DNA of 64,000 nucleotides from a virus. Every line of letters begins with the position of its first letter. Positions within the stretch are counted from its first letter, which is position 1. Of the stretch, positions 29,381 through 47,416 are shown piece after piece. The translations under genes were made by a program, and so were the position numbers. Location of the stretch: the IMG/VR virus record IMGVR_UViG_3300020186_000013, positions 1 through 64,000 of that record, one strand, 5' to 3'. The notes beneath the pieces are model-generated. The model had not been told where the DNA came from. It did no database searches and saw only the letters and a program-made list of their open reading frames with translations.

Positions 29381-29614
29381 CTATGTTGAGTCGTTGAAGT
29401 ATCTTCGGATGGCGTTGCGGACGTCGGACATCCTGGCCACCCGCGTCGCGGAGGCGTCCTCGCCCCGCTTACAGCGGTCGCACCGGCGTATCCTCTCCCG
29501 GTCGGGGGAGAGGAACTCTCGGCCGCACTTCATACAGTTACGCTTTCCCGGAACAGAAGCGTGGGGCATCTTGCCCGCACTGCCTTGACCGGGGTCGGGT
29601 CCTTCCGTGACCAT
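29381..29614 (-). CDS. Small zinc-ribbon protein
   Basis: A 77-aa protein with one zinc ribbon (CMKCGREFLSPDRERIRRC, then DRCK), a pattern found in many small phage and bacterial proteins, followed by a basic helix. Its start is unusual: AAGGAG sits in the loop of a hairpin whose 3' arm runs into the ATG (29612-29614), suggesting translational control. It lies between hldE-like kinase and an unknown gene. Confidence 0.7.
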   Translation of the reverse strand: MVTEGPDPGQGSAGKMPHASVPGKRNCMKCGREFLSPDRERIRRCDRCKRGEDASATRVARMSDVRNAIRRYFNDST

Positions 29615-44206: not shown

Positions 44207-47200
44207 ATGTCTACCTCCAAAAAGTTGACGATCGCGGAACAGCTGAAGATCAAGAAGAAGAAACAGCAGTCGGCGTTCCTCCAGACGGCGTCCCTCTCCA
44301 AGAAGGAGATGGGCCTGACGGGCTTCGAGGACGAGTGGACCAAGCGACTGATCATTGCCCAGCACTACCTGAAGAAGAGTAACGTCGCCAGCCTGCGGCC
44401 CATCTTGCCCGCCCTCCTCCAGCTCAAGGGCAAGCCGTACCACCTCAACGATCACTTCCCGTTCGAGCCCTTCTTCCGCACCCGCATGCCCTACATGACC
44501 CTCCTCAAGACGGGCCGGCAGGTGTCGAAGTCGACGAGTCTCTCGTCCCAGGGCATCATCTTTAGCAACGCCATCCCGTACTTCTCGACGCTGTACGTCA
44601 CACCGCTGTACGAGATGATCCGGCGGTTCAGCCACAACTACGTCCGGCAGTTCATCGAGACGTCGCCCGTGAAGCGACTGTTCATGAACTCCAAGACGAT
44701 CAACTCCGTCCTCCAGCGGTCGTTCCGCAACGGTTCGACCATGTACTTCAGCTTCGCGTACCTCGACGCCGAGCGTACCCGAGGTATCCCCGCCGACAAA
44801 GTTGTCATTGACGAGAGCGTAAGACTCGGTACAATGATCAGTACCCACACCGGCTCACGCCCGATCGAGACGTTCTCGCCCGGCGACGCGGTCCTGGGGT
44901 TCGACGAGGCTGGTCATGTCCGAAAAGATGAAGTCGTCAAGTGCTCCGACCACGGGGTCCGCGACTGCTACAGGTTCGAGTTCTCCGGCGGGTCGGCGGT
45001 CGAAGCTACTAGCGATTCTTGGCTCGCCACCACCGCCGGATGGAAACGGGTCGAAGCTGTCATCACTGACCTCAGCACAAGAGCAGATGATGCTGGGTTC
45101 GATGTTGGGCGACGGGTATCTGCGGAACACCGGCAAGCATTCGGCGTTCACGAGTCGTCACGGCTGGAAGCAGCACGCCTACAACTGCCGAAAGTTCCAG
45201 GTGTTATCCGAGTTCGTACGCACGCCTCCCAGGAAAGTGAAGAACTACGGCTACGGCGAGTGGTCGAGTCTGTGGCAGACTCGACAATCGGAGGCTTTGC
45301 AGGATATCGCTTCCTTGTGTCTCCGGGACGGCAAGAAGCGTGTGACGTCGGAGTGGCTCGACAGGATGACGTGGGAAGCGGTCGCGTGGTGGTACATGGA
45401 CGACGGCTCGCTCCAACTGCGGACGGCCGTGTTCAACACGCAGGGTTTCACGTCGGCGGAAGTGAAACTCCTGGCGAACTGGTTGACGGTTCGCGGGGTG
45501 GACGCGAAAGCCGCGAGAATCACGTCGCGGCACAACCCGACTGCGAGCTACTGGATCGTGCGACTGTCGGTCGACTCGACGCGTACGCTGGCGGCACTGA
45601 TCCGACCGTACGTGTTCCCGGAGATGACTTACAAACTGGACCTGCCTGCGAAGGCCGAGGCCCTGACCTGTCACTGGTGCTCGAAGGCGTTCGTTCCGGC
45701 TACGAACGGGCAACGGGTGTACGGCACGGGCGAGCAGAAACCGTGCTGCCGCTCGTCAACGTGCAAGGCCGAGCGGCACAAAGAACTCAACGAAACGCTG
45801 ATGGCGAAACCCGGCAAGCGGGGCGAGAAGAACGCCAAGCAGCGGGAGGGCTATGCGACGGACTTGGATACCCGTCGCAAGTACGAGCGGGAGAAGGCAG
45901 CACGCCTGTACGCGAAGAACCGGGAGAAGAGACTGGCGTACAAGAGGGCGTGGCGTGCCTCCAAGAAGTCGATCTCGTCCGGGTGACGTGGACGGGTAAG
46001 CACCGCGTTTTCGATCTCGAAACCAAAAACCACAACACGTTCCTGGCCGGCGGCGTCGCGGTACACAACTGCCAGGAGATGAACTACGACTTCTTGTCGA
46101 TCATCCACGAGACCTTGTCGGGCTCCCCGTTCGGCCTCAAGCAGTACGCGGGCACGCCCAAGTCGCTTGAGAACACGATCGAGAAGCTGTGGACCGACAG
46201 CAGCCAGGCCGAGTTCGCCATCAAGTGCCACCACGGTGGGTGCAACTACTGGAACGTCCCCGCCCTGTCCCACGACCTCGTGAAGATGATCGGGCCATGG
46301 CACTCGGGCATCTCCGAGCAGTGCCCCGGTATCGTCTGTGCCAAGTGTCGCAAGCCGATCGACCCTCGCCGCAACGGCCGGTGGATTCACGCCCAGCCCA
46401 ACGTGCGGTGGTCATTCGCCGGTTACCACATCCCGCAGATCATCATGCCGATGCACTACGCCACCCCCAAGAAGTGGGACATGCTGGTCGGCAAGATGCA
46501 GGGGCGGGGCAACACGCCCATGAACGTCTTCTTCAACGAGGTGTGCGGCGAGAGCTACGACGTGGGGTCGAAGCTGGTGACGGTCACGGAGCTTCAGGCG
46601 GCAGCCTGCCTGCCGTGGGAGAACAAGATCGAGCAGGCCGAGAAGCACCTGGACCAGTACCTGTACAAGATCCTGGCGGTCGACTGGGGTGGGGGTGGCG
46701 GCAAGCTGCGGAACTCGGCTGCCAAGCCCGGCAGCGAGCAGCGGGAGCGGACGAGCTACACCGTCCTGGTGGTCATGGGCATGCGGCCCGACGGGAAGAT
46801 CGACGTGATCTGGGGCCTCCGGTCGCTGCGGACGCACGCCCACGTCCACGAGGCCGAGCTGTGCATCGCCGCCATCCAGCGGTTCAAGTGCAGTCACTTC
46901 GTGCACGACTTCAATGGGGCGGGGGCGATCCGTGAGACCTTGGTGCGTCAGGCGGGCTTCCCGATGGGCAATATCATCCCGATCGCGTACCACGCCTCGG
47001 CCAAGAAAAACATCATGGTACACAAGCCGCCGACCGACGACCTGCCGCGTGACTGGTGGACGGTCGACAAGAGCCGATCGCTCCAGCTCACGTGTGAGTT
47101 GATCAAGTCCGGCCAGCTGCGGTTCTTCAAGGACGACTACCGCAGCTCCGACGACGCCGGGCTGATCCGTGACTTCCTGGCACTCATTGAGGAGAAGACG

Positions 47201-47416
47201 GAGAGGCCATCCGGCGGCGACGTGTACTGCATTACCCGCAACCCGACCGCCTCGGACGACTTCGCCCAGGGGGTCAACATCGGGTGTTGTGCGTTGTTCC
47301 AGTTGAGCGGTCAGTGGCCCGACGTGGCGGCGGCGAACCACCTGATCCTGCCGCTCGACGTCCTGTCCCATGTCCACCCGCAGCACCAGCCGGACTGGGA
47401 CGACGCGGGGAGCTAG
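44207..47416 (+). CDS. terL: Terminase large subunit, intein-containing precursor
   Basis: DNA packaging motor (ATPase plus headful nuclease). The precursor frame is 1069 aa; the exteins total 651 aa. Walker A is GRQVSKSTSL (about 103-112), and Walker B VVIDE (199-203) is interrupted by an intein exactly before CQEM. Nuclease domain: ILAVDWGGGGG and HDFNGAGAIRETLV, plus a zinc-type insert (CHHGGC...CPGIVCAKC). One of only two plus-strand genes; the stop TAG at 47416 shares CTAG with the convergent neighbour's stop. Shine-Dalgarno is weak. Neighbouring portal/capsid genes are outside the window. Confidence 0.9.
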   Translation: MSTSKKLTIAEQLKIKKKKQQSAFLQTASLSKKEMGLTGFEDEWTKRLIIAQHYLKKSNVASLRPILPALLQLKGKPYHLNDHFPFEPFFRTRMPYMTLLKTGRQVSKSTSLSSQGIIFSNAIPYFSTLYVTPLYEMIRRFSHNYVRQFIETSPVKRLFMNSKTINSVLQRSFRNGSTMYFSFAYLDAERTRGIPADKVVIDESVRLGTMISTHTGSRPIETFSPGDAVLGFDEAGHVRKDEVVKCSDHGVRDCYRFEFSGGSAVEATSDSWLATTAGWKRVEAVITDLSTRADDAGFDVGRRVSAEHRQAFGVHESSRLEAARLQLPKVPGVIRVRTHASQESEELRLRRVVESVADSTIGGFAGYRFLVSPGRQEACDVGVARQDDVGSGRVVVHGRRLAPTADGRVQHAGFHVGGSETPGELVDGSRGGRESRENHVAAQPDCELLDRATVGRLDAYAGGTDPTVRVPGDDLQTGPACEGRGPDLSLVLEGVRSGYERATGVRHGRAETVLPLVNVQGRAAQRTQRNADGETRQAGREERQAAGGLCDGLGYPSQVRAGEGSTPVREEPGEETGVQEGVACLQEVDLVRVTWTGKHRVFDLETKNHNTFLAGGVAVHNCQEMNYDFLSIIHETLSGSPFGLKQYAGTPKSLENTIEKLWTDSSQAEFAIKCHHGGCNYWNVPALSHDLVKMIGPWHSGISEQCPGIVCAKCRKPIDPRRNGRWIHAQPNVRWSFAGYHIPQIIMPMHYATPKKWDMLVGKMQGRGNTPMNVFFNEVCGESYDVGSKLVTVTELQAAACLPWENKIEQAEKHLDQYLYKILAVDWGGGGGKLRNSAAKPGSEQRERTSYTVLVVMGMRPDGKIDVIWGLRSLRTHAHVHEAELCIAAIQRFKCSHFVHDFNGAGAIRETLVRQAGFPMGNIIPIAYHASAKKNIMVHKPPTDDLPRDWWTVDKSRSLQLTCELIKSGQLRFFKDDYRSSDDAGLIRDFLALIEEKTERPSGGDVYCITRNPTASDDFAQGVNIGCCALFQLSGQWPDVAAANHLILPLDVLSHVHPQHQPDWDDAGS
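44816..46069 (+). other. Intein in terminase Walker B, splicing domains only in the extein frame
   Basis: Starts at Ser204 (SVRLGTMISTHTGSRPIETF) after VVIDE and ends GVAVHN before Cys+1. Block B reads VEATSDSWLATTAGWKRV, lacking the usual TxxH histidine (Ser instead). The F/G blocks are HRVFDLETKNHNTFLAGGVA. In between, the extein frame stays open for ~900 nt but is nonsense-like (Arg/Gly/Val-rich); the homing-endonuclease domain is encoded in the +1 frame (44916-45986). Confidence 0.85.
44916..45986 (+). CDS. LAGLIDADG homing endonuclease, out of frame inside the terminase intein
   Basis: An ORF in frame +1 relative to terL with both LAGLIDADG motifs: MMLGSMLGDGYL near 45088 and AVAWWYMDDGSL later. 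KLSSLTSAQEQMMLGSMLGD looks like the normal linkage after intein block B. A Cys pair (CHWC...CC...C) and a basic C-terminus precede its own TGA at 45984-45986. Start unsure: ATG 44916 or ATG 45088, both with poor SD. It may be a nested free-standing nuclease or a frameshift-expressed domain. Confidence 0.7.
   Translation: MSEKMKSSSAPTTGSATATGSSSPAGRRSKLLAILGSPPPPDGNGSKLSSLTSAQEQMMLGSMLGDGYLRNTGKHSAFTSRHGWKQHAYNCRKFQVLSEFVRTPPRKVKNYGYGEWSSLWQTRQSEALQDIASLCLRDGKKRVTSEWLDRMTWEAVAWWYMDDGSLQLRTAVFNTQGFTSAEVKLLANWLTVRGVDAKAARITSRHNPTASYWIVRLSVDSTRTLAALIRPYVFPEMTYKLDLPAKAEALTCHWCSKAFVPATNGQRVYGTGEQKPCCRSSTCKAERHKELNETLMAKPGKRGEKNAKQREGYATDLDTRRKYEREKAARLYAKNREKRLAYKRAWRASKKSISSG

Follow-up and report, generated by a model that had tools for sequence, protein, structure and literature searches.

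Fractured genes, in which the two halves of a split intein lie on either side of a free-standing nuclease gene, were reportedly described by Dassa et al. in 2009. Intein nucleases have been described as in-frame fusions with the intein (PMC3943268), as in the canonical bifunctional intein PI-SceI. The nearest precedent found for a nuclease in another frame is the ShiLan domain, an insert in a phage methylase gene that carries an HNH homing endonuclease out of frame, leaves the host frame without a stop codon, and contains no detectable splicing domain (Arsenault, Gosselin, Gogarten 2025, PMC11855218). Here, we analyzed a stretch of 64,000 nucleotides of giant-phage DNA (positions 1 to 64,000 of the IMG/VR virus record IMGVR_UViG_3300020186_000013), hereafter the window, in which the gene for the terminase large subunit (terL) is interrupted by an intein and a LAGLIDADG_2 homing endonuclease is encoded within the intein in frame +1. 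This locus resembles PI-SceI in the position of the nuclease between Hint blocks B and F and in its insertion at a conserved ATPase motif, but its nuclease is in frame +1, ends in its own stop, and would be made as a separate protein. It shares with ShiLan the open host frame and the homing endonuclease in another frame, whereas window-type loci have recognizable Hint halves around a LAGLIDADG_2 or DUF559 nuclease. In the open-licence literature, no account of a recognizable intein that contains a nuclease in another frame was found; a 2025 preprint on actinobacteriophage inteins of 'non-canonical architecture' (bioRxiv 10.1101/2025.01.02.630785), whose title suggests that it may cover similar layouts, lies outside that scope. 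The window very probably carries an overprinted intein, in which the terL frame gives a spliceable precursor and the +1 nuclease is translated separately.

The terL reading frame contained 0 stop codons over the intein, from S204 to N621 and the following Cys+1, as had been claimed in an earlier note made from the sequence of the window. Most terL relatives (L004-L028) have the VIDE|C site without an insert, and the insert of L008 sits 4 residues upstream. The window insert has the features of an intein, namely an open host frame, the terminal residues, and a Hint fold in the AlphaFold2 (AF2) model. The splicing residues comprise S1 in block A, the block F Asp in VFDLET, the AVHN end, and C+1. 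Matches to the Hint_2, Intein_splicing, and TIGR01443 profiles were weak, the last scoring above its cut-off in the C-terminal half. In the AF2 model of the terL-frame intein, predicted local distance difference test (pLDDT) scores were about 70-91 in the Hint halves but fell to about 28 over the 300 residues between them. The best Foldseek matches of this model were solved inteins, such as Ssp DnaB and Mtu RecA, with E about 1e-5 (best 1.6e-5).

The window nuclease is of the LAGLIDADG_2 (I-SceI) type by its profile, its two motifs with catalytic acids, and its predicted monomeric fold. It matched PF03161 with 78.5 bits against a cut-off of 25 (E = 7.7e-22) and also matched I-SceI (2.7e-14) and I-WcaI (5.5e-16), both of which were also retrieved by Foldseek with the AF2 nuclease model (pLDDT 88; E 3e-15 for I-SceI). 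Its Cys/His cluster is a probable zinc-binding module for DNA contact. The first position of the +1 open reading frame (ORF), 44916, was rejected as the true start of the nuclease because 44916-45061 is Hint domain DNA read in the other frame, and the real start is probably one of the two ATG codons given in Table 1. The earlier placement of the nuclease in frame +1 with its own TGA held; the TGA precedes most of blocks F and G, and the end of the nuclease gene shares DNA with the start of the C-terminal splicing half.

Table 1. Features of the terL locus in the window
Feature	Positions	Strand	Basis
terL (terminase large subunit) ORF	44207..47416	+	1069 aa; phrog_675 E 1.5e-46
N-extein, terL residues 1-203, last motif Walker B VIDE	44207..44815	+	Alignment to intein-free relatives L006-L028
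Intein, terL residues 204-621 (S1 ... HN), next residue Cys+1	44816..46069	+	terL-frame translation, alignment
N-terminal splicing half, blocks A and B, SVRLGTM...GWKRVEAV	44816..45061	+	Profile matches; AF2 Hint fold
Block B TSDS, Ser at the His B:10 position	45008..45019	+	Sequence
Overprinted linker, nuclease DNA in the terL frame, stop-free, predicted disordered	45062..45973	+	pLDDT about 28
C-terminal splicing half, blocks F and G, LVRVTWTGKHRVFDLETKNHNTFLAGGVAVHN; shares DNA with the final nuclease codons	45974..46069	+	TIGR01443 15.8 bits, AF2
C-extein from Cys+1, CQEMNYDF...	46070..47413	+	Alignment
+1-frame ORF containing the LAGLIDADG_2 nuclease	44916..45986	+	ORF list
LAGLIDADG_2 homing endonuclease, frame +1 relative to terL; inferred start ATG 45087 or 45090, stop TGA 45984-45986	45087..45986	+	
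First LAGLIDADG motif LGSMLGDGYL, catalytic Asp kept	45093..45122	+	
Second LAGLIDADG motif AWWYMDDGSL, catalytic Asp kept	45384..45413	+	
Cys/His cluster CxxC...C...CxxxxH, in part common to L008 and L042	45669..45779	+	
Long basic C-terminal helix of the nuclease	45816..45980	+	AF2 model

The openness of the terL frame over the nuclease was examined by synonymous permutation, which preserves the protein and the within-gene codon use but not codon-pair bias. The permuted nucleases had a mean of 6.6 terL-frame stops, and only 5 of 20,000 had none (P = 2.5e-4). Because none is observed in the window, the openness of the terL frame is more than luck, and the frame is under selection to stay open. 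The third frame has 11 stops over the nuclease, matching the expectation from the same permutation. In addition, the codon-position GC pattern changes frame at the intein boundaries, with a third-position GC fraction (GC3) of 0.91-0.92 in the exteins and 0.82 in the nuclease frame. A second assembly of the locus (L001/L003) differed from the window by 5 single-nucleotide polymorphisms (SNPs) and 0 indels in 9,068 bp, with no SNP within the intein. The possibility that compensating sequencing or assembly errors mask an ordinary in-frame intein, of a kind known from other phages with LAGLIDADG_2 nucleases, can be given practically no weight: the second assembly has SNPs but no indels, the nuclease terminates in its own stop, and the same offset occurs in relatives with 41% identity and in isolated, finished phage genomes. 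The earlier note had already considered a random pair of errors unlikely and had named two compensating indels as what would overturn its reading; none appeared in the second assembly. Related phages show that the arrangement is no sequencing error but a design that recurs and is kept by selection.

Other phages were surveyed for the same architecture by a search with the LAGLIDADG_2 nucleases of the window and L008, and the loci were scored with Hint profiles built from our own examples, the window among them. An out-of-frame nuclease within a fully open extein frame was found at 10 distinct loci: the window, L042 (= L045), L043 (= L008), L044, L047, L050, L051, L062, L068, and FoX3. Three of these are terL inteins (the window, L042, and L043), and the FoX3 locus is a helicase gene. 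Offsets +1 and +2 both occur among the out-of-frame loci. The extein frame was strikingly open even at 35-43% GC; in L042, L044, L047, and L051, 12-15 extein-frame stops were expected in each and 0 were found, and none of 20,000 permutations was stop-free. The nuclease is fully in frame in nine further inteins (L030, L031, L056, L057, L061, L071, L073, L080, and L081), and in a third group, made up of L046, L052, and the Pectobacterium phages (L034/L035), an out-of-frame nuclease lies in an extein frame broken by 13-47 stops. The insertion site of the isolate FoX3 is filled, and the near-identical FoX1, FoX2, and FoX5 have an empty site. On the nuclease tree, which has shallow support and long branches, the out-of-frame state requires six changes, at least two of them forced by supported branches; hence the arrangement probably arose more than once, and a single origin in LAGLIDADG_2 is disfavoured. 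A profile search of genome contigs with the LAGLIDADG_2 alignment found no relative.

The architecture also recurs with an unrelated nuclease, DUF559, which is probably EDxHD/Vsr-like by its Pfam assignment. Helicase inteins of Vibrio phages conceal a DUF559 nuclease in frame +1 (PF04480, E = 3.1e-13), and the same +1 layout was found in Vibrio phage CP-T1, Pseudomonas phage MR14, and Corynebacterium phage phi673, where it is annotated as one uninterrupted gene. Wider scans yielded 80 DUF559 loci with both Hint halves, of which 74 were out of frame and open, 6 were broken, and 0 were in frame. All 74 are at offset +1, and their extein frame is stop-free down to 26% GC. After the loci were collapsed at 90% identity, synonymous permutation of the 61 non-redundant clusters predicted 534 extein-frame stops; none was observed, and the third frame had 1,045. 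As controls, 18 nucleases that are in frame or lack Hint halves had 10-39 stops each in the equivalent frame. The nuclease frame in the DUF559 class is under purifying selection. Between L090 and L092, nuclease codon positions 1, 2, and 3 have 4, 1, and 29 differences, which alter 5 nuclease residues and 29 extein-frame residues and create no stop. Because these changes alter extein-frame residues without stops, the linker is free in sequence but bound to stay open, which is what a linker that is translated and later removed predicts.

Whether the nuclease of this class is translated on its own was assessed from the sequence around its starts, and internal initiation appears to fit best. Shine-Dalgarno energies before DUF559 nuclease-frame starts surpassed those of the extein frame (p = 0.003) and those of the third frame (p = 3e-6), in a comparison uncorrected for kinship. 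A nuclease-frame stop lies at most 150 nt upstream of the nuclease start in 32 of 49 DUF559 loci, and immediately before it in L068, L090, L092, L093, and L095. Programmed ribosomal frameshifting, with a +1 slip near 45060-45090 that would produce a fusion of N-extein, N-terminal Hint half, and nuclease, is unlikely given these upstream stops and the enrichment of Shine-Dalgarno sites and start codons at nuclease starts. Moreover, no single type of slip fits both the +1 and +2 offsets, and with the nuclease's own stop a slip could never give a complete intein with a nuclease domain. Among the three options raised in the earlier note, a nested and independently expressed nuclease is thus the best supported, and the frameshifting option, although unlikely for the class, retains some room in the window, which has a weak Shine-Dalgarno site and no nuclease-frame stop as far back as 44838.

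Several observations weigh against the reading of the window as an overprinted intein with a separately translated nuclease. Its Shine-Dalgarno site, at about -2 kcal/mol, is weak and close to the median of the background, and no nuclease-frame stop lies a short way upstream of the start; therefore, internal initiation in the window itself, suggested by analogy, rests on its relatives. Openness partly defined the class of loci, although only 6 of the 80 DUF559 loci and 3 of the 13 out-of-frame LAGLIDADG_2 loci were not open. Some single-locus stop tests were weak (L050, P = 0.71; FoX3, P = 0.027). Finally, His B:10 of block B is missing from all three out-of-frame terL inteins, which read TSDS in the window, TADE in L042, and TKDS in L043. 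Only two inteins without this His have been noted, one a pseudogene and the other (Tko CDC21-1) active through a compensating Lys (PMC4031507). The window intein, with TSDS in place of TxxH, falls outside canonical class 1; the missing His that the earlier note had pointed out is real and is common to the two related terL inteins. The block B His is retained in L044, L050, L051, L062, and L068. Because terL is single-copy in the whole 208,145-bp virus record and otherwise intact, putative splicing activity of the window intein is nevertheless likely; as the only copy, terL must splice to function.

The degenerate block B across the terL group is also what might be expected of a decaying element, that is, a splicing mini-intein with a dead nuclease whose other frame is a relic of indels. 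L008 provides an example of nuclease decay. Its C-extein is 53% identical to that of the window, and it carries a related nuclease, also in frame +1, that is interrupted by a TAG at L008:4514-4516, just before the second catalytic motif, while the terL/intein frame is still open. Recoding of this TAG was considered and rejected, as L008 terL itself terminates in TAG. Since L008 combines a broken nuclease with an intact extein frame, loss of the nuclease can be separated from splicing. For the window, however, decay is quite improbable: its nuclease ORF is unbroken, retains the two catalytic acids, and has a confidently predicted fold. In the related DUF559 class, purifying selection acts on the nuclease frame, and even very divergent phages keep the nuclease out of frame. 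The mini-intein option of the earlier note describes L008 but is not supported for the window.

An element removed at the RNA level, with the nuclease inside a self-splicing intron or such an intron replacing the intein, was considered as well, as LAGLIDADG_2 enzymes such as I-SceI are typically intron encoded. A group I intron that encloses the ORF of a homing endonuclease resembles the window in having a separately translated I-SceI-like nuclease in a self-removing element; it is removed from RNA, whereas removal in the window is proposed at the protein level, the whole element being open and no intron being detected. An Rfam search of L003, L008, and L029 gave no match to any family up to E = 1, and intein blocks A, F, and G are complete. 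Selection against extein-frame stops would make no sense if the linker were removed from RNA and never translated, and this explanation is very hard to sustain.

In the overprinted intein, ribosomes starting at terL would read through the insert and produce TerL with a 418-residue intein in its Walker B region. The two Hint halves of this intein would flank a linker of ~300 residues that results from translation of the nuclease DNA in the terL frame. The halves may then assemble into one fold and excise the linker, restoring ...VIDE-CQEM.... Other ribosomes would initiate on the same mRNA at about 45087-45090 in frame +1 and release a free-standing I-SceI-like LAGLIDADG nuclease. This nuclease could cut intein-free terL alleles, by which the element would spread through homing. 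With splicing and homing in two proteins from the same DNA, the nuclease dose could be set apart from the host-gene dose. Decay of the nuclease would not affect splicing for as long as the extein frame stays open, as seen in L008.

More generally, it is likely that inteins have, in addition to the in-frame bifunctional and the split form, a third and stable form, the overprinted intein, in which LAGLIDADG_2 and DUF559 nucleases were captured in a second frame and are translated by themselves, with both frames under long-term selection. In the DUF559 class, almost every locus has this arrangement, which would be of ancient origin. Loss of the extein frame could then turn overprinted inteins into split ones that have a nuclease gene between their halves, a plausible path from the intact to the split state. 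Split inteins with a free nuclease have the same order of N-terminal half (IntN), nuclease gene, and C-terminal half (IntC), as at the Pectobacterium phage loci, L046, L052, L148, L150, and L159. In these, 13-47 stops break up the extein frame and trans-splicing is required, whereas the window has 0 stops and cis-splicing is expected. L034/L035, L046, and L052 have the appearance of split inteins whose halves are separated by the nuclease gene. In Pectobacterium phage Amona (L034:1617-4727) and likewise in Ymer (L035), the helicase gene is cut by a stop into IntN and IntC ORFs, and the LAGLIDADG_2 nuclease gene overlaps both; the parts are annotated as unrelated genes, and the locus is an apparent natural split intein. 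L148, L150, L151, L159, and L160, which are likely split inteins as well, have DUF559 between Hint halves, 15-35 extein-frame stops, and a different insertion site (HN|CGAFPKP).

Overprinted inteins offer a recurrent dual-coding case for studies of overprinting. Standard annotation misses the nuclease, as most of the isolated phages examined give a single 'helicase' or 'hypothetical' label, and a search rule combining Hint halves with an alternative-frame nuclease should uncover many more. In the isolates L037 and L089-L096 (Vibrio phages CP-T1, Rostov M3, K391, 104E43.1, and 159E43-1b, Pseudomonas phage MR14, and Corynebacterium phage phi673), the other-frame nuclease of the helicase genes is unannotated, and the labels on these genes include 'hypothetical' and 'coil containing protein'. 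Six contigs of bacterial metagenome-assembled genomes (L177-L182, including Akkermansia muciniphila and Ruminococcus sp. assemblies), which are probably prophage or phage contigs, also carry a DUF559 nuclease; in the five in which both Hint halves were found (not L180), an open intein encodes this nuclease in another frame. The Walker A motif of two terL relatives (L004:1-2331 and L005:3945-6335) holds a different, in-frame mini-intein that lacks a nuclease (GRQVSK|C...HN|STS). The window also contains a single tRNA gene, a tRNA-Arg (tct) at 29496-29593 on the minus strand.
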